Source of the DNA: Burkholderiales bacterium
Lineage (GTDB): Bacteria; Pseudomonadota; Gammaproteobacteria; Burkholderiales; SG8-41
Length of the DNA stretch: 64,000 bases
Reading direction: 5' to 3'
Assembly: GCA_019749945.1 (NCBI GenBank)
Contig: JAIEPF010000001.1
Span: 124,001-188,000 of the forward strand
The notes beneath the pieces were generated by a model. The model saw nothing but the letters and a program-made list of their open reading frames with translations, was not told the DNA's origin and searched no databases. The position numbers and the translations under genes were made by a program. Positions 2,823 to 13,611 of the stretch are shown here, one piece after another. Position 1 is the first letter of the stretch. The number at the start of each line of letters is the position of its first letter.

Positions 2823-2897
2823 AATTAATGCAACATCGGCCCGGCATGGCATGGCGTTTGCATTAATTCGCTTCAGGATCCGGCCAACGGCGGTCGG
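2823..2897 (+). promoter_or_regulatory. Candidate two-hairpin ANTAR (NasT) target in the nrtA leader
   Basis: Hairpin 1 has perfect 11-bp arms, 2823-2833 and 2858-2868 (AATTAATGCAA/TTGCATTAATT), around a 24-nt loop. Hairpin 2 (2880-2897) is CCGGCC-AACGGC-GGTCGG: a 6-bp stem with one G-U pair and a hexaloop with A at position 1 and G at position 4. That is the hallmark published for ANTAR targets. Hairpin 1 does not show a clean A1/G4 hexaloop, so only the second hairpin matches fully. An intrinsic terminator follows 12 nt later. Confidence 0.72.
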
Positions 2898-2909
2898 TTT
2901 CACAACAAA

Positions 2910-2958
2910 GGCGTTGGAGCAGGTGCGCAGCACGCGCGCGGCTTCACCGCCTTTTTTT
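2910..2958 (+). terminator. Leader intrinsic terminator upstream of nrtA
   Basis: The stem 2910-2920 (GGCGTTGGAGC) pairs with 2941-2951 (GCTTCACCGCC), with one mismatch and one G-U pair. Seven T residues follow at 2952-2958. It ends 30 nt before the nrtA start, the position expected for a NasT-controlled attenuator. Segment 2880-2887 is also exactly complementary to 2960-2967, a possible competing pairing. Confidence 0.8.
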
Positions 2959-2988: not shown

Positions 2989-4242
2989 ATGAATGAAAAA
3001 CCGACCCGCAAAACGCAGCGCCGCAAGTTCCTCAAACAAGCCGGCGCGGCGGCCCTGATGAGTCTGGTGCCCGAAGCGGTGCGCAGCGGCGCATGGGCCG
3101 CAGGCTCCGATGCCCCGGAAAAAACCGAGGTCAAGGTCGGCTTCATTCCGCTGACCGACTGCGCGTCGGTGGTGATGGCCTCGGTGCTGGGTTTCGACAA
3201 AAAATACGGCATCAAGATCACGCCGACCAAGGAAGCCTCCTGGGCCAGCGTGCGCGACAAGCTGATCAACGGCGACATCGATGCGGCGCATGTGCTCTAC
3301 GGCCTGATCTACGGCGTGCATCTCGGCATCAGCGGCCCGAAAAAAGACATGGCCATGCTGATGACGCTGAACCACAACGGCCAGGCCATCACCTTGTCGA
3401 AAAAGCTCGCCGATGCCGGCGCTGTTGACGGCCCCTCTCTCGCCGCGGTAATGAAAAAGGACAAACGCGACTACACCTTTGCACAGACCTTCCCCACCGG
3501 CACCCATGCCATGTGGCTGTACTACTGGCTGGCCGCCAACGGCATCAATCCGATGAAGGACACCAAGATCATCACCGTGCCGCCGCCGCAGATGGTCGCC
3601 AACATGCGCGTCGGCAACATGGACGGTTATTGTGTCGGCGAACCCTGGGGCCATCGCGCCATCGCCGACGGCATCGGCGTCACCGCAGTCACCACCCAGG
3701 ACATCTGGAAGGATCACCCGGAAAAGATCCTCGGCACCACCGCCGATTTTGTCGCCAAAAATCCCAATACCTGCCGCGCCATGATCATGGCTGTCCTCGA
3801 AGCCAGCCGCTGGATCGACGCCTCGCTGTCGAACCGCATGAAAATGGCGGAGACCGTCGCCAACACCGCCTACGTCAACACCTCCGTCGACGTCATCAAC
3901 CAGCGCATCCTCGGCCGCTACCAGAACGGCATGGGCAAGACCTGGGACGATCCCAACCACATGAAATTCTTCAACGACGGTGCGGTGAACTTCCCCTACC
4001 TGTCCGACGGCATGTGGTTCCTGACGCAGCATCGGCGCTGGGGTCTGCTCAAAACAGATCCGGATTACCTCGCTGTCGCCAAGGAGATCAACAAAATCGA
4101 TCTTTACAAACAGGCGGCCTCGCAGTTGAAGGTCAGCGTGCCCAAGGACGCCATGCGCAGCTCGAAGCTGATCGACGGCGTGGTCTGGGACGGCAAGGAT
4201 CCGAAGAAATACGCAATGAGCTTCCCGGTCAAAACGGCCTGA
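2989..4242 (+). CDS. nrtA: Nitrate ABC transporter substrate-binding protein, Tat-exported
   Basis: 417 aa, NrtA/CmpA/SsuA-like family. A twin-arginine signal is visible at the N-terminus (TQRRKFLKQAGAAALMSLV), so the protein is exported folded. The body has the NrtA layout: VKVGFIPLTDCASVVMAS, GDIDAAHVLYG and GNMDGYCVGEPWG. It would deliver nitrate or nitrite to NrtB/NrtD. ATG 2989 is chosen because ATG 2985 runs into a stop after three codons. It is the first gene behind the terminator leader. Because it is exported, it is unlikely to substitute for the cytosolic sensor NasS. Confidence 0.93.
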   Translation: MNEKPTRKTQRRKFLKQAGAAALMSLVPEAVRSGAWAAGSDAPEKTEVKVGFIPLTDCASVVMASVLGFDKKYGIKITPTKEASWASVRDKLINGDIDAAHVLYGLIYGVHLGISGPKKDMAMLMTLNHNGQAITLSKKLADAGAVDGPSLAAVMKKDKRDYTFAQTFPTGTHAMWLYYWLAANGINPMKDTKIITVPPPQMVANMRVGNMDGYCVGEPWGHRAIADGIGVTAVTTQDIWKDHPEKILGTTADFVAKNPNTCRAMIMAVLEASRWIDASLSNRMKMAETVANTAYVNTSVDVINQRILGRYQNGMGKTWDDPNHMKFFNDGAVNFPYLSDGMWFLTQHRRWGLLKTDPDYLAVAKEINKIDLYKQAASQLKVSVPKDAMRSSKLIDGVVWDGKDPKKYAMSFPVKTA

Positions 4243-4260: not shown

Positions 4261-5175
4261 ATGATCCCTGCGCCCAGCCCCGCCATTCCCGCCACGGCCG
4301 AAGCCGCGCCTGCGGCTCGCGTCACGGCAGCCGTTGTGCCCCACACTGCCGCACCGACGCGCAATGCCGCAGCCGAACAGGCCGCGGCCAACCAGCGCAT
4401 CGCCTTGCGGCGGCGCGCCGAAATCGCCGCGCGTATCGCGGCGCCGCTGCTCGGCCTGGTGGTGTTCCTGATCATCTGGGCCGCGATCGCGCAGATGGGC
4501 ACCATTCCCGGCCCGGCCAAGACCTGGGAAGCGGCGAAAGTCGTGTTCAGTGATCCCTTCTACAAAAACGGGCCCAATGACCAGGGCATCGCCTGGAAAA
4601 TCGGCGGCTCGCTGTCGCGCGTGGGCATCGGCTTCGGCCTCGCCGCGCTGGTCGGCATCCCGCTCGGTTTCATGATCGGGCGCTTCCTGTTCCTGCGCAA
4701 CATGTTCGAGCCGGTGATCAGCCTGCTGCGCCCGGTGTCGCCGCTGGCCTGGCTGCCGATCGGGCTGCTGGTGTTCAAGGGGGCGGATCCGGCGGCAATC
4801 TGGACCATTTTCATCTCCAGCATCTGGCCGATGGTGATCAACACCGCGGTCGGCGTGCAGCGCATCCCGCAGGATTACCTCAACGTCGCGCGCGTGCTGA
4901 AACTGTCGGAATGGAAAGTGTTCAGCAAGATCCTCTTTCCCGCCGTGCTGCCGTACATGCTGACCGGCGTGCGGCTGTCGATCGGCATCGCCTGGCTGGT
5001 CATCGTCGCCGCCGAAATGCTCACCGGCGGCGTCGGCATCGGCTTCTGGGTGTGGGACGAATGGAACAACCTGAAAGTCGAAAACATCATCATCGCGATT
5101 TTTGTCATCGGCGTCATCGGCCTGCTGCTGGAATACAGCCTGCTGCTGCTGGCCAAACGCTGGCAGTACGATTGA
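4261..5175 (+). CDS. nrtB: Nitrate ABC transporter permease
   Basis: 304 aa inner-membrane permease of the NrtB/SsuC family. After an Ala/Pro-rich N-terminal tail of about 60 residues come the transmembrane segments. The cytoplasmic coupling loop is seen around residues 190-215 (VGVQRIPQDYLNVARVL), and the end is LLEYSLLLLAKRW. The start ATG has AAGGAA 8 nt upstream. It begins 18 nt after nrtA. It forms the channel with the NrtD ATPase, which is separated from it by a 178-bp spacer holding an inverted repeat. Confidence 0.93.
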   Translation: MIPAPSPAIPATAEAAPAARVTAAVVPHTAAPTRNAAAEQAAANQRIALRRRAEIAARIAAPLLGLVVFLIIWAAIAQMGTIPGPAKTWEAAKVVFSDPFYKNGPNDQGIAWKIGGSLSRVGIGFGLAALVGIPLGFMIGRFLFLRNMFEPVISLLRPVSPLAWLPIGLLVFKGADPAAIWTIFISSIWPMVINTAVGVQRIPQDYLNVARVLKLSEWKVFSKILFPAVLPYMLTGVRLSIGIAWLVIVAAEMLTGGVGIGFWVWDEWNNLKVENIIIAIFVIGVIGLLLEYSLLLLAKRWQYD

Positions 5176-5203
5176 TGCTGCTCGGTTAAGTCAAAAACTT
5201 TTT

Positions 5204-5323
5204 AGCCACAGAGGACACAGAGGGCACAGAGGAAATCAAAAAATGAACATGAACCCACAAGTCGATTTTTCTTCACAACCGCAGGCTTTGTTCTTCTCTG
5301 TGGCCTCTGTGTCCTCTGTGGCT
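5204..5323. repeat. CACAGAGG inverted repeat, copy 2, within the nrt operon
   Basis: The perfect 20-bp arms are 5204-5223 and 5304-5323 (AGCCACAGAGGACACAGAGG and its complement). They share the arm sequence of the copy at 511-592 but enclose a different 80-nt loop. The element fills the spacer between nrtB and nrtD. The hairpin has no T-run, so it does not look like a strong terminator; it could affect mRNA stability or the ratio of permease to ATPase. Confidence 0.85.
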
Positions 5324-5353
5324 GCACTTGTCATGAGACCTTCAGGAGACTAA

Positions 5354-6142
5354 ATGGATCGTTATCTGAACATCGAACAGGCCGGCATGATTTTCGAGAC
5401 CCGCGCCGGCGCCTTCACCGCTCTGCGCGACATCAACCTCGACATCCAGAAAGGCGAGTTCGTCACGCTGATCGGCCACTCCGGCTGCGGCAAATCAACG
5501 CTGCTCAACCTGATCGCCGGACTGACCAACCCCACCAGCGGTTATCTCTTTTTGTCCGGCCGCCAGATCGACGGCCCCGGCCCCGATCGCGGCGTGGTGT
5601 TCCAGAACCATTCACTGCTGCCGTGGCTGACCTGTTTCGAGAACATCCACCTCGCCGTCGAGCGCGTATTTGCCGAAACCGAGAGCAAGGTGCAGTTGCG
5701 TGAACGCACGCAACGCGCACTGGAACTGGTCGGTCTCGCCGCCGCCGCTGACAAGCGCCCGCATGAAATCTCCGGCGGCATGAAACAGCGCGTCGGCATC
5801 GCCCGCGCGCTGGCGATGGAACCCAAGGTGCTGCTGATGGATGAACCCTTCGGCGCGCTGGATGCGCTGACCCGCGCACGGCTGCAGGACGAACTGATGC
5901 GCATCGTCACCGCCACCGGCAGCACCGTGGTCATGGTCACCCACGACGTCGACGAAGCCGTGCTGCTCGCCGACCGCGTGGTGATGATGACCAATGGTCC
6001 GGCCGCCACCATCGGTGAAATCCTCCATGTCGATCTGCCGCGTCCGCGCGAACGCCTGGCGATGGCGAGCAATCCGCAATACCTGGCGGCACGCAAGGCA
6101 GTGCTTGAATTCCTGTATCAGAAGCAGTTGAAGGCGGCATAA
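5354..6142 (+). CDS. nrtD: Nitrate ABC transporter ATP-binding protein
   Basis: 262 aa ABC ATPase of the NrtC/NrtD/SsuB/TauB type. Walker A is GHSGCGKST (about residues 42-50), the Q-loop lies in VVFQNHSLLPW, the signature is ISGGMKQR (about 140), Walker B is VLLMDEPFGALD (about 158) and the switch His is in VTHDVDEA. It lacks the NrtA-like C-terminal extension of cyanobacterial NrtC, so it is the short NrtD form. The start has GGAG upstream. It energises uptake through NrtB. Confidence 0.93.
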   Translation: MDRYLNIEQAGMIFETRAGAFTALRDINLDIQKGEFVTLIGHSGCGKSTLLNLIAGLTNPTSGYLFLSGRQIDGPGPDRGVVFQNHSLLPWLTCFENIHLAVERVFAETESKVQLRERTQRALELVGLAAAADKRPHEISGGMKQRVGIARALAMEPKVLLMDEPFGALDALTRARLQDELMRIVTATGSTVVMVTHDVDEAVLLADRVVMMTNGPAATIGEILHVDLPRPRERLAMASNPQYLAARKAVLEFLYQKQLKAA

Positions 6143-6153
6143 CCTCATTGTTA

Positions 6154-6182
6154 AAAATAATGAATAAAAACAATAAGTTACG
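6154..6182 (-). repeat. AT-rich dispersed motif, copy B, overlapping a gene start
   Basis: The plus strand reads GAATAAAAACAATAAGTTAC across the start of the next gene, so the motif encodes its first residues (MNKNNKL). No Shine-Dalgarno sequence is visible here. This suggests either an element that landed on the start or a regulatory sequence tolerated inside the coding region. Confidence 0.65.
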
Positions 6183-7389
6183 ATTGGTCTGCGTCGGCAA
6201 CGGCATGGCCGGCATGCGCGCCCTGGAGGAGTTGCTGAAACTCGCACCCGATCTCTATGACATCACCATGTTCGGCGCCGAGCCGCATCCGAATTACAAC
6301 CGCATCCTGCTCTCCCCGGTGCTCGCCGGCGAACAGACGCTGCAGGAGATCATGTTGAACGATCTCGACTGGTACGCGCAGCACAACATCAGGCTGCACC
6401 TCGGCAAAAAAGTCACTACGATTGATCGCATCAAACGTGTTGTACATGCCGAAGACGGCACCACCGCGGAATACGACCGCCTGCTGCTGGCCACCGGATC
6501 GAATCCCATCCTGCTGCCCATCCCCGGCATGACACTGCCGGGCGTGCTGACCTATCGCGACATCGCCGACACCGAGAGCATGATCAGCGCAGCCTCACAA
6601 CACAAAAGCGCCGTGGTCATCGGCGGCGGCCTGCTCGGCCTCGAAGCCGCCAACGGCCTGAAGCAGCGCGGCATGGACGTCACCGTGGTGCATCTGGCGG
6701 AGTGGCTGATGGAACGCCAGCTCGACCGCACCGCGTCGAAACTGCTGCAGGGTTCGCTGGAGAAAAAAGGCCTCCGGTTCCGTCTCGCCACGCAGACCGC
6801 GGAGCTCGTTGCCGGTGAATCGGGACGCGTCGCCGCGGTGCGCTTCAAGGACGGCAGCACTGTCGCCGCCGAACTGGTGGTGGTCGCCATCGGCATCCGC
6901 CCCAACATCGAACTCGCGGAAAAAGCCGGCCTCTACTGCAACCGCGGCATCGTCGTCAGCGACACGATGCAAACCTACGATCCAAGAATCTACGCCGTCG
7001 GCGAATGCGCCAACCACCGCGGCATCGCCTACGGCCTGGTCGCCCCGCTGTTCGACATGGCCCGCGTCTGCGCCAATCACCTCGCGGGGCACGGCATCGG
7101 CCGTTACACCGGTTCGCTGACCTCGACCAAACTCAAGGTCACCGGCATCGAGCTGTTCAGCGCCGGCGACTTCCAGGGCAGCGACGGAGCCGAAGACATC
7201 ACGCTGTCGGATCCGCTGCGCGGCGTCTACAAAAAACTGGTGATCAAGGACGACAAGCTGATCGGCAGCGTGCTCTACGGCGACACCGTCGACGGTGCGT
7301 ATTACTTCAGGCTGCTGACTGAAGGCAGCAAGGTCAGTGCCATCCGCGACCAGCTGATGTTCGGCGACGCTGTAACCGCGGCGCATTAA
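6160..7389 (+). CDS. nasB: FAD/NAD(P)H oxidoreductase, assimilatory nitrate reductase electron-transfer subunit
   Basis: 409 aa from ATG 6160 (an in-frame TTG at 6148 is less likely). It resembles the N-terminal half of NirB. FAD-binding VCVGNGMAGMRALEEL is near the start, followed by LLLATGSNP, the NAD-binding GGGLLGLEAANGL and the second FAD motif IYAVGECANHRGIAYGLVAPL. It probably passes electrons from NAD(P)H to NasA, encoded 4 nt downstream. Naming of this subunit differs among organisms (NasB or NasC). The N-terminal codons coincide with the AT-rich motif, and no ribosome-binding site is evident. Confidence 0.85.
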   Translation: MNKNNKLRLVCVGNGMAGMRALEELLKLAPDLYDITMFGAEPHPNYNRILLSPVLAGEQTLQEIMLNDLDWYAQHNIRLHLGKKVTTIDRIKRVVHAEDGTTAEYDRLLLATGSNPILLPIPGMTLPGVLTYRDIADTESMISAASQHKSAVVIGGGLLGLEAANGLKQRGMDVTVVHLAEWLMERQLDRTASKLLQGSLEKKGLRFRLATQTAELVAGESGRVAAVRFKDGSTVAAELVVVAIGIRPNIELAEKAGLYCNRGIVVSDTMQTYDPRIYAVGECANHRGIAYGLVAPLFDMARVCANHLAGHGIGRYTGSLTSTKLKVTGIELFSAGDFQGSDGAEDITLSDPLRGVYKKLVIKDDKLIGSVLYGDTVDGAYYFRLLTEGSKVSAIRDQLMFGDAVTAAH

Positions 7390-7393
7390 CACC

Positions 7394-10108
7394 ATGCCTG
7401 AAGTCCATTCCACCTGCTGCTACTGTGGTGTTGGTTGCGGGGTCATTATTGACCGCCGTGAAGGCCGCATCACCGGCGTGCGCGGCGATCCGAAACATCC
7501 CGCCAACTTCGGCCGGCTCTGCGGCAAGGGCCAGACCCTGCACGAAACCGTCGGCGGCCACGGCCGCGCGCTCCATCCCGAACTGCGCCTCGACCGCAAT
7601 ACGCCGCGTGCGCGCGTGTCCTGGGATGCCGCGCTGGACCATGTCGCGGAAAAGTTTGCCGACACCATCAAAAAACATGGGCCCGATTCGGTGGCCTTCT
7701 ACATCTCCGGCCAGTTGCTGACCGAAGACTATTACACCTTCAACAAACTGGCGCGCGCGCTGGTCGGCACCAACAATGTCGATTCCAATTCGCGGCTGTG
7801 CATGTCCTCCGCTGTCGCCGGCTACAAGGCGACGCTGGGCGCCGATGCGCCGCCGACCTGTTACGAAGACATCGACCACGCCGACTGCATCGTGATCGCC
7901 GGTTCGAATGCAGCCTGGGCGCATCCGGTGCTGTTCCGCCGCATCGAGGATGCGAAGGCGAAAAACCCGGATCTCAAAATCATCGTCATCGATCCGCGCC
8001 GTACCGCGACCGCGGAAATTGCCGACCTGCACCTCGCGATCCAGCCCGGCACCGATGTCGTGCTGTTCCACGGCATGTTGAACGCGCTGCTGTGGGAAAA
8101 CCTGAGCAATACCGCCTACATCGAAGCCCATACCCAGGGTTACGACGCGCTGAAAACGCTGGTACGCGAATACTCGCCGGGCTTCGCCGCCGAAGTCTGC
8201 GGCATCACCACTGAAGAACTGCTCACCGCCGCGCGCTGGTTCGGCACCGCTCGCGCCGCCCTGTCGCTGTACTGCATGGGACTCAACCAGTCATCAAGCG
8301 GCGCCGACAAAAACGCCGCGCTGATCAACCTCCACCTCGCCACCGGCCACATCGGCCGCCCCGGTGCAGGGCCGTTTTCGCTGACCGGCCAGCCCAATGC
8401 GATGGGCGGCCGCGAAACCGGCGCCATGGCCAATCTGCTGATCGGCCACCGCGATCTGAACGATGCCAATGACCGCGCCGAAGTCGCGAAGCTGTGGGAT
8501 GTGCCGTCGATTCCCTCACATCCCGGCAAAACCGCGGTCGAGATGTTTGCCGCCATCGCACGCGGCGAGATCAAGGCGGTGTGGATCGCCTGCACCAACC
8601 CCGCGCAATCGCTGCCCGGACAGAACGCCGTGCGCGATGCGCTGATGCAAGCCGAACTGGTGGTGCTGCAGGAAACCTATGCCGACACCGAAACCGCGCC
8701 CTACGCCGACGTGCTGCTGCCGGCGGCGGGCTGGGGCGAAAAAGAAGGCACGGTGACCAATTCCGAACGGCGCATTTCGCGGGTGCGCGCCGCCGTGGAC
8801 GCGCCCGGCGAAGCACGGCCCGACTGGCGCATCGTCTGCGATTTCGCGATGCTGCTCGAACGCAAGATACACGGCCATGCCTCGGCGCGATTCGCCTTCG
8901 ACAATCCGCGGCAGATTTTCAACGAGTACCGCGAGATGACCCGCGGCCGCAACACCGACATCACCGGCCTCGGTTACGCCACACTGGATGCCAAGGGTCC
9001 GCAGCAGTGGCCTTACGCCGTCGGCGCGCGCGAAGGCAAACAACGCCTGTATGAAAACGGCGTATTCCCGATAGCCGGCGGGCGGGCGCGTTTCGCCGCC
9101 GTGCCGTACAAACCCGTCGCCGAAAACATCGATGCGCGTTTCCCGTTCCGGCTGACCACCGGACGTCTGCGCGACCAGTGGCATGGCATGACCCGCAGCG
9201 GCCGCGTCGCACGGCTATGGGGACATGCGCCGGAACCCGCGGTCTCGCTGAATCCCGCGGACCTCGCAAGGCGCGGACTGGTTGCCGGCGACATCGTCCG
9301 TCTCGAATCGCGGCGTGGCGCCTTGAACGTCATCGCCGCCGCCGATCCCGGCGTCGCACCCGGCCAGGCCTTCCTGCCCATGCACTGGGGCAGCCGTTAT
9401 CTGTCGGGCGCCGGCATCAATGCTTTGACGCTGCCGGTAATCGACCCCAAATCCTTCCAGCCTGAACTCAAACACTGCGCGATCAAGGTCAGCAAGGCCT
9501 TGCTGCCGTGGCGGCTGATCGCCTTCGGCACGCCGCGCGACGGTGATGCGCTGGCGCAACTGACACGGGTGCAGGCCTGGCTGCCGGAATTCGAATTCGC
9601 CTCCTGCGCGCTGACCCCCGATGCCGGCGGCGTGCTGCTGCGCGCTGCCGCCGGCACCGCACCGGCCGCCGATGTGCTCGAAGCCATTCATGCCCTGTTC
9701 GAACTCGACAGCGAGGATGTGCTGCGTTATGCCGACCCGACCCGCGGCAATGCCCGCTGCGTGCGCCTCGATGGCGAACGCGTGGTGGCAGTCTGCCTGT
9801 CCGGCGACGGCAGCAGTGAATCCTGGCTGCGCGAATTCCATGCCCAGGGCCTGCCCGCCGCAGCACTCGGCGCGCTGCTGCTGGCACCCACGGCCAGGGC
9901 ACCGGCCGGCGCCACATCACGCGGCCGCATCATCTGCAGCTGCCACGGCGTCGGCGAAAACGCCATCGTGACCGCAATGCAGGGCGCCGCCGGTGACGCC
10001 ACGGCCCGGCTCGGCTCGGCGCAGCAACAACTGTTGTGCGGCACGCAATGCGGCTCCTGCCTGCCTGAATTGCGCAAACTCGCCGCGGCTGCAGTGGTGG
10101 CGGCTTAG
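7394..10108 (+). CDS. nasA: Assimilatory nitrate reductase, catalytic subunit
   Basis: 904 aa cytoplasmic molybdopterin enzyme that reduces nitrate to nitrite. The N-terminal 4Fe-4S site is C8-x2-C11-x3-C15 with a fourth Cys near residue 44. The Mo-bisMGD body follows (SNSRLCMSSAVAGY, GSNAAWAHPVLFRR, GQPNAMGGRETG, and the C-terminal dinucleotide-binding HGMTRSG region). The last 70 residues add a BFD-like 2Fe-2S domain (CSCHGV and CGTQCGSC), as in Klebsiella-type NasA. That fits direct reduction by the FAD protein encoded just upstream. Confidence 0.95.
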   Translation: MPEVHSTCCYCGVGCGVIIDRREGRITGVRGDPKHPANFGRLCGKGQTLHETVGGHGRALHPELRLDRNTPRARVSWDAALDHVAEKFADTIKKHGPDSVAFYISGQLLTEDYYTFNKLARALVGTNNVDSNSRLCMSSAVAGYKATLGADAPPTCYEDIDHADCIVIAGSNAAWAHPVLFRRIEDAKAKNPDLKIIVIDPRRTATAEIADLHLAIQPGTDVVLFHGMLNALLWENLSNTAYIEAHTQGYDALKTLVREYSPGFAAEVCGITTEELLTAARWFGTARAALSLYCMGLNQSSSGADKNAALINLHLATGHIGRPGAGPFSLTGQPNAMGGRETGAMANLLIGHRDLNDANDRAEVAKLWDVPSIPSHPGKTAVEMFAAIARGEIKAVWIACTNPAQSLPGQNAVRDALMQAELVVLQETYADTETAPYADVLLPAAGWGEKEGTVTNSERRISRVRAAVDAPGEARPDWRIVCDFAMLLERKIHGHASARFAFDNPRQIFNEYREMTRGRNTDITGLGYATLDAKGPQQWPYAVGAREGKQRLYENGVFPIAGGRARFAAVPYKPVAENIDARFPFRLTTGRLRDQWHGMTRSGRVARLWGHAPEPAVSLNPADLARRGLVAGDIVRLESRRGALNVIAAADPGVAPGQAFLPMHWGSRYLSGAGINALTLPVIDPKSFQPELKHCAIKVSKALLPWRLIAFGTPRDGDALAQLTRVQAWLPEFEFASCALTPDAGGVLLRAAAGTAPAADVLEAIHALFELDSEDVLRYADPTRGNARCVRLDGERVVAVCLSGDGSSESWLREFHAQGLPAAALGALLLAPTARAPAGATSRGRIICSCHGVGENAIVTAMQGAAGDATARLGSAQQQLLCGTQCGSCLPELRKLAAAAVVAA

Positions 10109-10149: not shown

Positions 10150-10258
10150 ATTGCACCCTCACCCCTTCCCCTCTACTCCGTTTCCAGTGTTCCCTGGTCC
10201 CGGAGGGAGAGGGGTTTTAAGCCCTTCTCCCTCCGGGAGAAGGGTGGGGATGAGGGAG
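10150..10258. repeat. C/G-skewed palindromic repeat (CCCTCACCCC / GGGGATGAGGG type)
   Basis: The region holds CCCTCACCCCTTCCCCTCT on the left, a central hairpin around 10218-10240 (CCTTCTCCCTCCGGGAGAAGG-like, split about TCC/GGA) and GGGTGGGGATGAGGGAGA on the right. Related sequence occurs at 15268-15316, and a short piece at 28665-28675. It is intergenic between nasA and cobA and resembles REP-like elements that are common in Proteobacteria. Confidence 0.75.
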
Positions 10259-10297
10259 AAAAGTGGTAACTCCATAACGGGCTTCAGGAGAAACGAC

Positions 10298-11071
10298 ATG
10301 TCCATCAACACAACGCCAAAACAACCCGGAAAAGTATGGCTGGTCGGCGCAGGTCCCGGCGACCCCGAACTGCTGACGCTGAAAACGGTGCGCGTACTCG
10401 GCGCTGCCGATGTGGTACTGGTCGATGACCTGGTCGACCCACGCATCCTCGCGCACGCAAAACCCGCCGCGCGCATCGTGCAGGTCGGCAAACGCGGCGG
10501 CTGCCGCTCAACCCCGCAGGCTTTCATCGAAAAACTGATGATCCGCCTGGCGCGGCGCGGATCAGTGGTGGTGCGCCTCAAAGGCGGCGACCCCTTTGTC
10601 TTCGGTCGCGGCGGCGAAGAAGCCGAAGCGCTGGCCCGGGCGCAAATTCTCTGCGAGGTGGTCAACGGCATTACCGCCGGCATCGCCGTGCCGGCCGCGA
10701 TCGGCATTCCAGTCACCCACCGCGCACTGGCGCATGGCGTGACCTTCATCACCGGGCACGCCCGCGACGGTGCGGAACCCGACTGGGCCGCACTGCGCGC
10801 CGGCGGCACCACGCTGGTGATCTACATGGGCATGAAGCGTGTAGCCACCATCGTCAAGGGCATGCTGGCCGCGGGTTATCCCGCCGACCTGCCGGCCTGC
10901 GCGATCCAGAACGGCACCCTGGAAACCCAGGCCACGGTGGTGTCCACGCTATCCACATTGCCGCAGAGCATCGCAAACGCCGGCCTCGGCAGCCCGGGCA
11001 TGCTGGTCATCGGCGATGTCGTCAGACTGGCCCATGTCACCGCACTCACTTCACAGCAACGAGCCGCCTGA
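10298..11071 (+). CDS. cobA: Uroporphyrinogen-III C-methyltransferase (SUMT)
   Basis: 257 aa. It makes precorrin-2 from uroporphyrinogen III using two SAM, the first step to siroheme, the cofactor of NirB. Motifs: VGAGPGDPELLTLK (residues 15-28), VRLKGGDPFVFGRGGEEAEAL (about 89-108, written here in part), GITAGIAVPA and THRALA. It is the stand-alone SUMT and lacks the CysG oxidase/ferrochelatase domain; a CbiX-type chelatase is encoded at 60807. ATG 10298 is preferred because AGGAG lies 7 nt upstream; the longer open frame before it runs through the palindromic repeat. Confidence 0.95.
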   Translation: MSINTTPKQPGKVWLVGAGPGDPELLTLKTVRVLGAADVVLVDDLVDPRILAHAKPAARIVQVGKRGGCRSTPQAFIEKLMIRLARRGSVVVRLKGGDPFVFGRGGEEAEALARAQILCEVVNGITAGIAVPAAIGIPVTHRALAHGVTFITGHARDGAEPDWAALRAGGTTLVIYMGMKRVATIVKGMLAAGYPADLPACAIQNGTLETQATVVSTLSTLPQSIANAGLGSPGMLVIGDVVRLAHVTALTSQQRAA

Positions 11072-11079
11072 GCCCCCCC

Positions 11080-13611
11080 ATGAAAACCCAGAAAATCGTC
11101 GTCATCGGCAACGGCATGGTGGGCCAGCGCTTTCTGGAACAACTGACCAGCCGCCTGTCGATCGAGGCGATCGACGTCACGGTGTTCTGCGAGGAACCGC
11201 GCGCAGCCTACGACCGCGTGCAGCTCACCAGTTTTTTCGCCGGCAAGTCGGCGATGGACCTGAGCGTGGTACCCGAGCGTTTTTTCGAAGAAAAGGCGAT
11301 CACGCTGCGGCTGAACGACCCGGTGATTGCCATAGACCGCGAACGCAAGACGGTGCGCTCCGCGCGTTATCGTGAAGTGCCGTACGACAAGCTGGTGCTG
11401 GCCACCGGCTCCTACCCCTTTGTGCCGCCGATACCGGGGCACAACCGGCGCGGCTGTTATGTCTATCGCTCGATCGAGGATCTGGAAGTGATCCGTGCCG
11501 CAGCAAAAAAAGCGCGCATCGGCACCGTGGTCGGCGGCGGACTGCTCGGCCTTGAGGCGGCCAAGGCGCTGAAGGATCTCGGACTCGAAACCCATGTCGT
11601 TGAATTCGCGCCGCGGCTGATGGCGGTGCAGCTCGACGAGGCCGGCGGTAAGCTGCTGCAACGGAAAATCGAAGCGCTGGGCGTGACCGTGCATACCGCA
11701 AAAAGCACCAGGGAAATCATCAACGGCGAAGTACAGGCCCACCGCATGGTGTTCGCCGACGGCACTGCGCTGGAAACCGACATCATCGTGTATTCAGCGG
11801 GCATACGCCCCCACGACGCACTGGCGCGCGCGGCAAAACTCGCGGTCGGTGAGCGTGGCGGCATCACCATCGACGAGTTCTGCCGCACATCGGATCCGGA
11901 CATCTACGCCGTGGGTGAATGCGCGCTGTGGAACGGGCGCATTTTCGGCCTGGTGGCCCCCGGCTACCAGATGGCTGAAGTCGCGGCACGCCATGTCGCG
12001 GGCGAAACCGACTCGCGGTTCGCAGGCGCCGACATGAGCACCAAGCTGAAGCTCATGGGCATCGACGTCGCATCCCTCGGTGATGCGCTCGACAAGACGC
12101 CCGGCGCGCTCAACTATCTTTATACCGATCCGGTGCAGGGCATCTACAAAAAGCTGACGGTATCAAACGACGGCAAGCAGTTGCTGGGTGCGATCCTCGT
12201 CGGCGACGCCAGCGAGTACAACGGCCTCTTGCAGATGATGCTGAATGCAATCCCGCTGCCCGAGCATCCCGAAGACCTGATCCTGCCGGCACGCGAAGGC
12301 GGCGCCAAGGGATTGGGTGTCGACATGCTGCCGGCGGCTGCACTGATCTGCTCCTGCAACAGTGTCAGCAAAGGCGCGATCTGCGACGCGGTAATGGCAG
12401 GCTGCACCACCATCGGTGGCCTGAAAAAGGAAACCAAGGCCGGCAGCACCTGCGGCGGCTGTGTGCCCATGGTCAAGCAGATCCTCGACGCCGAGCTGCG
12501 CAAGCAGGGTATTGAGGTCAAGAACCATCTCTGCGAACACTTCCCGCATACCCGCCAGGAACTGTTCCACCTGACCCGCATCGGCGGCCTCAAAACCTTC
12601 GACGACATCATCACCAAGCATGGTCAGGGCCGCGGCTGCGACATCTGCAAACCGGCCGTCGCTTCCATCCTCGCCTCGTGCTGGAACGAATACGTCCTCA
12701 AACCGAAACACGCGCCGCTGCAGGACACCAACGACCGCTTCCTCGCCAACATGCAAAAGGACGGCACCTACTCCATCGTGCCACGTGTGCCGGGCGGCGA
12801 AATCCTGCCTGAGAAACTGATCGTGCTCGGTGCAGTGGCGAAAAAATACGGTCTCTACACCAAGATCACCGGTGCACAGCGCATCGACCTCTTCGGCGCG
12901 CGCGTCGAGCAGTTGCCGCTGATCTGGCGCGAGCTGGTCGATGCCGGCTTCGAATCTGGCCATGCCTACGGCAAGGCGCTGCGCACCGTAAAATCCTGCG
13001 TCGGCAGCACCTGGTGCCGTTACGGCGTGCAGGACTCGGTGGGCATGGCGATCAAGCTCGAGAACCGCTACCGTGGGCTGCGCTCGCCGCACAAACTGAA
13101 AATGGGCGTATCGGGCTGCACCCGTGAGTGTGCGGAAGCGCAAGGCAAGGACGTCGGCATCATCGCCACCGAAAAAGGCTGGAACCTCTATGTCTGCGGC
13201 AATGGCGGCATCAAACCGCGCCACGCCGACCTGCTCGCCACAGGCATCGACGATGCCACGTTGGTGCAATACATCGACCGTTTCCTGATGTTCTACATCC
13301 GCACCGGAGACCGCCTGCAGCGCACCTCGACCTGGCTCGACAACCTCGAAGGCGGCATCGATTACGTGAAAAAAGTCGTTTGCGAAGACTCGCTGGGCAT
13401 CGGTGCAGAACTCGAAGCCGATATGCAGAAACTGGTCGACACCTATGAGTGTGAATGGAAAAAAGCCATCAACGACCCGGAATCGCTGAAACGCTTCCGC
13501 CATTTCGTCAACAGCGACCAGCCTGATCAAAACGTCGTGTTTGTTGCGGAACGTGGGCAAATCCGGCCGGCGCGTGCGGATGAGAAGGAAACCGAGGAGG
13601 TGACGGCATGA
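11080..13611 (+). CDS. nirB: Assimilatory nitrite reductase, large subunit
   Basis: 843 aa. It reduces nitrite to ammonium with NAD(P)H. The FAD/NAD domain comes first (VVIGNGMVGQRFLEQL, VVGGGLLGLEAAKALK, IYAVGECALWNG). A BFD-like 2Fe-2S domain lies near residues 425-465 (CSCNSVSKGAICDAV and STCGGCVPM). The siroheme/4Fe-4S domain carries its ligands at about 640 (SCVGSTWCRYG) and 680 (GCTRECAEAQ). It is 8 nt downstream of cobA, which supplies the siroheme precursor. The TGA stop overlaps a small downstream ATG. Confidence 0.96.
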   Translation: MKTQKIVVIGNGMVGQRFLEQLTSRLSIEAIDVTVFCEEPRAAYDRVQLTSFFAGKSAMDLSVVPERFFEEKAITLRLNDPVIAIDRERKTVRSARYREVPYDKLVLATGSYPFVPPIPGHNRRGCYVYRSIEDLEVIRAAAKKARIGTVVGGGLLGLEAAKALKDLGLETHVVEFAPRLMAVQLDEAGGKLLQRKIEALGVTVHTAKSTREIINGEVQAHRMVFADGTALETDIIVYSAGIRPHDALARAAKLAVGERGGITIDEFCRTSDPDIYAVGECALWNGRIFGLVAPGYQMAEVAARHVAGETDSRFAGADMSTKLKLMGIDVASLGDALDKTPGALNYLYTDPVQGIYKKLTVSNDGKQLLGAILVGDASEYNGLLQMMLNAIPLPEHPEDLILPAREGGAKGLGVDMLPAAALICSCNSVSKGAICDAVMAGCTTIGGLKKETKAGSTCGGCVPMVKQILDAELRKQGIEVKNHLCEHFPHTRQELFHLTRIGGLKTFDDIITKHGQGRGCDICKPAVASILASCWNEYVLKPKHAPLQDTNDRFLANMQKDGTYSIVPRVPGGEILPEKLIVLGAVAKKYGLYTKITGAQRIDLFGARVEQLPLIWRELVDAGFESGHAYGKALRTVKSCVGSTWCRYGVQDSVGMAIKLENRYRGLRSPHKLKMGVSGCTRECAEAQGKDVGIIATEKGWNLYVCGNGGIKPRHADLLATGIDDATLVQYIDRFLMFYIRTGDRLQRTSTWLDNLEGGIDYVKKVVCEDSLGIGAELEADMQKLVDTYECEWKKAINDPESLKRFRHFVNSDQPDQNVVFVAERGQIRPARADEKETEEVTA

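Follow-up and report, generated by a model that had tools for sequence, protein, structure and literature searches.

Which signals govern the nitrate assimilation operon of this Burkholderiales bacterium, and is the RNA leader that precedes it an ordinary or a variant target of an ANTAR-domain antiterminator? The window, i.e. the whole stretch of 64,000 nt (64 kb) that was analysed, holds in this order nasT, a gap of 313 nt, nrtA, nrtB, nrtC and the genes for a NirB-like oxidoreductase, a molybdopterin reductase and a siroheme methyltransferase, followed by nirB. In the general ANTAR target as described by Ramesh et al. (2012; PMC3369931), two mini-hairpins carry hexaloops with A at position 1 and G at position 4 (A1/G4), the second hairpin lying at the 5' base of the terminator, and changes at the A1/G4 positions reduce induction as well as EutV binding. 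The original prediction of a NasT/ANTAR-type antitermination leader upstream of nrtA appears sound from the sequence, considering the two A1/G4 hexaloops, the overlap with the terminator and the neighbouring ANTAR gene. With a probability of about 0.92, the nrtABC-nasA-nirB operon would be subjected to a double control, namely initiation by NtrC and sigma-54 and antitermination by NasT at a dual-hairpin leader. In this model, the structure, the mutual exclusion of its folds and the promoter find support in sequence and covariation, and NasT binding, nitrate control and read-through would follow what is described for other ANTAR systems.

The nitrate assimilation locus

The genes of the locus are as follows.

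2103-2675, + strand: nasT, encoding a protein with receiver-like and ANTAR domains (PF00072, 3e-10; PF03861, 2.2e-20)
2989-4242, + strand: nrtA, encoding a nitrate-binding-type protein (PF13379, 5e-105) with a twin-arginine (RRKFLK) signal assigned via a simple sequence pattern
4261-5175, + strand: nrtB, permease (TIGR01183, above cut-off)
5354-6142, + strand: nrtC/D-type ATPase (TIGR01184, above cut-off)
6148-7389, + strand: NirB-like FAD/NADH oxidoreductase, N-terminal part of NirB only (positions 1-395 of 794 in TIGR02374, below cut-off)
7394-10108, + strand: molybdopterin oxidoreductase (PF00384, PF01568, PF04879, PF04324)
10151-11071, + strand: uroporphyrinogen-III C-methyltransferase, for siroheme (TIGR01469, above cut-off)
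11080-13611, + strand: nirB, nitrite reductase large subunit (TIGR02374 and NF011565, above cut-off)

Adjoining the leader on its upstream side, nasT provides the single ANTAR match in a whole-genome search. Judging by its sequence, the molybdopterin oxidoreductase is probably the assimilatory nitrate reductase NasA/C; its matches to the NasA and NasC models are all below the cut-offs of these models, and its best NCBIfam match, formate dehydrogenase alpha, is likewise below cut-off. Upstream of its gene, the stand-alone gene at 6148-7389 encodes just the N-terminal (FAD/NADH) half of NirB, besides the full nirB. Regarding intergenic regions, a repeat made of TTTAGCCACAGAGGACACAGAG and its inverse, which looks like a palindromic intergenic repeat, occurs in two copies in the window, one near its start (511-592) and one within the operon, in the gap between nrtB and nrtC (5200-5325).

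Architecture of the leader

The following features were located in and upstream of the leader.

2740-2756, + strand: NtrC-like site TGCACCGCAATAGAGCA, about -133 from the predicted start
2823-2868, + strand: 11-bp palindrome in the DNA, overlapping the promoter, with arms AATTAATGCAA (2823-2833) and TTGCATTAATT (2858-2868) and a 24-nt loop
2847-2862, + strand: predicted sigma-54 -24/-12 promoter TGGCATGGCGTTTGCA
2873, + strand: predicted transcription start, some 12 nt past the -12 GC
2880-2897, + strand: P1, CCGGCC[AACGGC]GGTCGG (CCGGCC at 2880-2885, loop at 2886-2891, GGTCGG at 2892-2897), A1/G4 hexaloop; covaries
2903-2916, + strand: P2, CAAC[AAAGGC]GTTG, second A1/G4 hexaloop, alternative to the terminator; covaries
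2907-2958, + strand: intrinsic terminator, with the stem at 2907-2954 and the T-run (U-tract) at 2952-2958

P1 and P2, which came out of a search for A1/G4 hexaloops, are separated by 21 nt from loop to loop. All the elements announced by the original prediction, i.e. the 11-bp palindrome and an AACGGC hairpin ahead of an intrinsic terminator and directly 3' of an ANTAR protein gene, lie where they were said to be. The AACGGC hairpin does obey the A1/G4 rule but it had been taken for the second one of the target; actually, it is P1, and the true P2 had been overlooked. The terminator stem and the P2 loop share their first base (2907), whereby P2 and the terminator should be mutually exclusive, the stretch 2907-2916 being common to P2 and to the 5' arm of the terminator. 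The sequence features of an ANTAR dual-hairpin target were all found, namely P1 and P2 stems of at least 3 bp, A1/G4 hexaloops, a P2 overlapping the terminator and a cognate ANTAR gene in the genome. With the AACGGC hairpin as P1 and a P2 that overlaps the terminator in the manner of the published model, the target reads as a standard and not a variant one. Like other ANTAR dual-hairpin target RNAs, it combines two short A1/G4 hexaloop stems, a P2 at the 5' base of the terminator and a location upstream of nitrogen genes; nothing essential differs, the P1 stem being longer in the close relatives here (up to 11 pairs). For the predicted transcript (2873-2962), the folding energy is -42.7 kcal/mol vs. 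-27.3 +/- 2.8 kcal/mol for shuffled sequences (z -5.6), none of 200 shuffles being as low.

No further target of the same kind was found in the genome, where the model R1, built partly from this leader, matches this place only at E <= 1 (150 of 2808 first-look candidates scored). A match to the Pistol ribozyme on the minus strand (12.8 bits, E 8.1) was discarded as a chance match.

Regarding initiation, TGGCATGGCGTTTGCA matches exactly the sigma-54 consensus TGGCAYGRN3TTGCW and is the only exact match in the 64 kb, for 0.06 expected and at least one in 6 of 100 shuffles. Of 31 leaders, the one of the window included, 30 have a sigma-54 element with a score of 11 or more out of 13 located 15-75 nt upstream of the P1 loop (shuffled mean 0.1, maximum 2). 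The NtrC-like site shows one mismatch to the NtrC consensus TGCACY-N5-RGTGCA, and a site with at most 2 mismatches is present at -145 to -115 of the predicted start in 24 of the same 31 leaders (200 shuffles, mean 0.1, maximum 2). The predicted promoter thus combines a conserved -24 GG and -12 GC, an upstream activator site and the presence of rpoN in the genome (PF04552, 1.2e-64), as expected for dependence on sigma-54 and NtrC. Sigma-54 promoters typically start transcription about 12 nt after the -12 GC, and transcription should start here near 2873. In a survey from 2025, the ANTAR/NasT gene cluster is credited with 66 predicted sigma-54 promoters, most of them in beta- and gammaproteobacteria (PMC12316311).

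Conservation and covariation in relatives

The spacing of 21 nt between P1 and P2 is conserved in close relatives: of 23 loci whose nasT is full-length and shares at least 63% identity, own locus included, 21 have it. As for the remaining two, a spacing of 31 is proposed by the scan for L020, and L025 is truncated at a contig end. More distant relatives have spacings of 20 to 32. Four of the 21 are imperfect. L008 has a mismatch in P1 and lacks a T-run, and L019 has a degenerate P2 and likewise lacks a T-run. In L021 and L026, the P2 loop has G instead of A at position 1, an exception to the A1 rule, and the P1 loop retains A1/G4. These four rule-breaking leaders count against the double control. 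In the genome of L019 (G017, also represented by L191), nasT and P1 are retained, P2 is degenerate, no T-run terminator was seen and no NrtA-family protein was matched (E <= 1e-20); the leader is perhaps decaying after loss of the transporter.

Covariation was assessed on two sets of leaders. A1 (22 leaders) was put together by register and includes L008, L019, L021 and L026, which the automatic scan had not accepted. A2 comprises 29 of 35 extracted leaders, distant ones included, without L008 and L019, which have no T-run, and L069, L071, L074 and L075, which were clipped by the T-run picker; the 35 are a selection from the scanned loci and not a random sample, the scan having also covered loci without an acceptable set of P1, P2 and terminator. 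In A1, 91.6% of the P1 and P2 cells are paired, vs. at most 50.6% in slid versions, with two-sided changes in 9 of 14 pairs, and covariation amounts to 0.376 vs. 0.179 in shuffles (0/500); in A2, it reaches 0.473 vs. 0.201 (0/500), slid versions giving at most 0.153. Taken separately, P1 has 10 pair columns, of which 7 in A1 and 9 in A2 exhibit two-sided changes, the outermost one being mostly unpaired, and P2 is paired in 97.7% (A1) and 99.1% (A2) of cells, with two-sided changes in 2 of 4 pairs. For the terminator in A2, 89.7% of cells are paired and covariation is 0.502 vs. 0.235 in shuffles (0/500), 2 of 5 measures being not clearly above shuffles (pairs with a two-sided change, 71/500; further pair types, 161/500). 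Because P1 and P2 on the one hand and the competing terminator on the other hand each covary, both alternative folds look to be under selection. Conservation of the hexaloop in relatives, on which the original prediction had staked itself, was checked and found for both loops, which are kept together with stem pairing in close as well as distant relatives.

Of note, the same leader lies upstream of a different nitrate-binding-type protein (about 39% identical) in six genomes, five of the same genus and one from another family (L012-L017), which suggests replacement of the transporter downstream of a retained leader.

Relation to the narK RNA family

Under permissive thresholds, positions 2848-2917 match the Rfam family RF03032, or narK RNA, with 37.6 bits and an E-value of 1e-5, below the gathering cut-off of 43.2. 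A search of the own genome with RF03032 returned this place alone (150 of 777 candidates scored) and, in a scan of the loci of 20 relatives, an E-value of 0.01 was reached by L007 and L005 only. The consensus of the family consists of GGCAC-N5-UUGCU, which is a sigma-54 promoter, of CC[AACGGC]GG, the only modelled hairpin, and of the 3' end ACGACAAAGACGUCGC, inside which GAC[AAAGAC]GUC is a P2 left unmodelled by Rfam. The family and the leader of the window are thus alike in having promoter, P1 and P2 in the same build; the Rfam description differs in that one hairpin is modelled, the promoter is counted as RNA and P2 is left unpaired, the leader falling below its cut-off.

Among 300 genomes of the order, RF03032-like sites were detected in 34 (E <= 0.001), 3 of them above the cut-off, an undercount as 15 candidates were scored per genome with stricter filters. 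The low scores in the window, in most of the 20 relatives and in most of the 34 genomes weigh against the proposed control and its link to narK RNA. The ANTAR domain is present in 147 of the 300 genomes, and all 34 genomes with RF03032-like sites belong to these 147, the lists being compared by hand and the identity of the 300 genomes in both searches being taken from their handles. With kinship ignored, this co-occurrence corresponds to hypergeometric probabilities of 3e-12 by genome and 2e-7 by genus (25 genera among 79 of 135).

Loci were returned for 30 of the 34 sites, and the following counts rest on these 30. The P2 loop follows A1/G4 at 29 sites, and 3 or more of the 4 P2 pairs are present at 28; on 23 distinct rows, the covariation of P2 is 0.361 vs. 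0.108 in shuffles (0/500), and moving the register by one column as a control left no support. A terminator stem of at least 7 bp starting in the P2 loop is found at 26-27 sites depending on the script (the cleaner of the two gives 27), with a mean of 4.1 and a maximum of 10 in 200 shuffles. An nrtA-family gene lies downstream within the locus at 20 sites; the remaining ones precede major-facilitator transporters (4, narK-like in our reading), NirB-like oxidoreductases (2), a molybdopterin oxidoreductase, an OprD-type porin and an EAL-domain gene (1 each), and L130 is cut by a contig end. It is therefore very likely that narK RNA is an ANTAR target together with its promoter, the latter making up the 5' third. 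The narK motif was reportedly defined by Weinberg and co-workers in 2017. A full-text literature search, the scope of which excluded this source paper, returned no paper on RF03032 or narK RNA, and none of the titles and abstract starts listed joins the family to ANTAR.

Besides, the sites ahead of the EAL-domain gene (L121 in G168, downstream of 1568) and of the OprD-type porin gene (L118 in G321) are possible ANTAR targets of an unusual kind. In G245, a single contig taken as a circle, the RF03032-like site is likely to be acted upon in trans since it lies at least 1.5 Mb from the ANTAR gene.

Proposed control and comparison with known systems

Under nitrogen scarcity, NtrC and the sigma-54 RNA polymerase would initiate transcription near 2873, as the promoter and the NtrC-like site suggest. 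By default, the nascent leader would fold P1 and then the terminator (2907-2954), and transcription would end ahead of nrtA. In the presence of nitrate, active NasT, as an ANTAR dimer, would bind the A1/G4 hexaloops of P1 and P2; because P2 uses 2907-2916 of the terminator 5' arm, the terminator could not form when P2 is bound, and the polymerase would read through. By analogy with characterised systems, NasT should lift termination ahead of nrtA in this bacterium.

The nasA leader RNA of Paracoccus is bound by NasT, and nitrate dissociates NasS-NasT (PMC3795266); a mutation in a leader hairpin abolishes growth on nitrate (PMC5424462). As in Paracoccus denitrificans, a NasT-type protein adjoins nitrate assimilation genes here and leader hairpins are thought to terminate transcription; unlike there, no NasS was found, the linked protein belongs to the NrtA family with a Tat signal and the operon includes an ABC transporter. 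The Klebsiella nasF leader with NasR is alike in its hexaloop hairpins and terminator ahead of nitrate assimilation genes, but NasR has its own nitrate-sensing NIT domain, whereas none was found in the NasT of the window. In Bradyrhizobium diazoefficiens, which is a NasS-bearing alphaproteobacterium unlike the organism of the window, NasT acts on the nosR leader and NasT-recognisable hairpins are predicted in the nirA and narK leaders (PMC6759348); as reported there, narK rose in a nasT deletion under denitrifying conditions and fell, according to another group, with nitrate as nitrogen source. The same paper states that most NasT-dependent genes have no clear NasT hairpin, which, like the rise of narK, speaks against the double control. 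In the description of the NasDEFT cluster in the 2009 Dechloromonas genome paper, no NasS is named (PMC2907700).

NasT without a recognisable NasS

In the double control, nitrate has to be signalled to NasT, and the failure to find a NasS counts against it. In the own genome, no signal-less NasS was found, its absence being not proven in an assembly that is 95.8% complete, and both NrtA-family genes found have twin-arginine patterns; the cytoplasmic NasS paired with NasT that characterises NasS-NasT systems is hence missing from what was found. The search for NrtA-family proteins (E <= 1e-20), which could miss a very distant or unassembled NasS, covered 53 of the 57 NasT-bearing genomes, the own genome being searched apart and G005 and G007 (fragments) as well as G083 being left out. 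NrtA-family genes were recovered in 51 of these 53 further genomes, G017 and G091 giving no match at this threshold. In 49 of 52 NasT-bearing genomes (own included), every copy found has a twin-arginine pattern, such signals being assigned by simple pattern; the exceptions are G043, where the gene is cut by a contig end, G074 and G105. In G074, a NasS-like protein stands next to NasT, in addition to an NrtA with a Sec-like N-terminus. In G105, the sole NrtA-family copy, 66% identical to the NrtA of the window and without signal pattern, lies directly upstream of nasT; the same gene run (L187, 6744-8606) includes a major-facilitator transporter, and nrtB and nrtC were not recognised among the open reading frames listed at this locus. 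This gene run also includes a gene reading as a phosphatase/protein-kinase fusion, the kinase being recognised by eye. These surveys suggest that, in many Betaproteobacteria, NasT operates without any NasS that can be recognised.

A tree of 85 NrtA/NasS proteins, built without the near-copies L059 and L190, requires 5 changes between exported and signal-less forms, and its starred branches force 5; some labels were set by eye, L041, L255 and L076 being considered as exported and short hydrophobic ("HYD") N-termini as signal-less. The signal-less proteins of G105, L227 and L249 sit apart from one another within the exported NrtA clade of 36, L227 being a long branch of less sure placement. Besides, a signal-less group of 15, nearly all from Burkholderiaceae, is sister to the exported NrtA clade rather than to the Rhizobium-type NasS. 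Such a distribution agrees with an NrtA already able to partner NasT and is also compatible with a partnerless NasT. Tat substrates are expected to fold in the cytoplasm before export. One tentative and rather improbable proposal is that the Tat-targeted NrtA is the sensor in these Betaproteobacteria, where it would bind NasT and free it when nitrate-bound, replacing the missing NasS.

Alternatively, NasT could be always active without any sensor, with ammonium/NtrC control being the only one that counts and the terminator holding basal expression low. This is somewhat unlikely, and is a variant of the double control with a different signal, so that its odds are not exclusive of the others. 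It would agree with the lack of NasS-like proteins devoid of export signal in the own genome and in most NasT-bearing relatives searched, as well as with the aligned NasT proteins having no lysine near the end of the receiver domain, where receiver domains usually carry one; against it, nasT and an nrtA-family gene are close together in many families and signal-less NrtA-type proteins recur next to nasT, both of which suggest a functional partnership.

Readings without NasT or with a variant target

Much less probable is a plain attenuator, in which NasT is uninvolved and the terminator is constitutive or run by another factor. No NasS was found in this genome, and in Bradyrhizobium a predicted NasT hairpin is reported as not always paired with NasT-dependent expression (PMC6759348), both of which would be in keeping with a leader independent of NasT, but the two A1/G4 hexaloops and the overlap of P2 with the terminator are conserved with covariation and, among the 300 genomes, RF03032-like sites were found only where an ANTAR gene was found.

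The palindrome at 2823-2868 had been regarded in the original prediction as the first hairpin of a variant ANTAR target. It is perfect in the window and would fold in silico if transcribed, but its 3' arm begins with the -12 half of the sigma-54 promoter, and since this exact promoter puts the start downstream, near 2873, the palindrome should lie outside the transcript made from it. Its pairs are not conserved either: scored in their own register across the 31 leaders, all 11 are intact in the window, two near relatives keep 10 and 9 of them and 27 others keep 2-7, one leader being unscorable, and with a sliding 5' arm the other leaders reach 6-9 of 11 pairs, wobble counted. Considering this lack of conservation, the overlap with the promoter and the canonical P2 found in its stead, the palindrome was rejected as an RNA element and probably has no RNA function, which leaves the variant target hardly credible.

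Significance

Under the double control, the leader itself adds one more clean example of sigma-54/NtrC control topped by NasT/ANTAR antitermination and is, as such, of modest significance; the identity of RF03032 and the NasS-less NasT matter more. RF03032 gains a likely identity which, if true, would correct the Rfam model. As for NasT without NasS, it gives concrete form to the question of nitrate signalling, for which the Tat-targeted NrtA is a testable candidate. If NrtA were indeed the sensor, the uptake receptor and the gene switch would be one and the same protein, and loss of the signal peptide would have turned NrtA repeatedly into signal-less NasS-like sensors.
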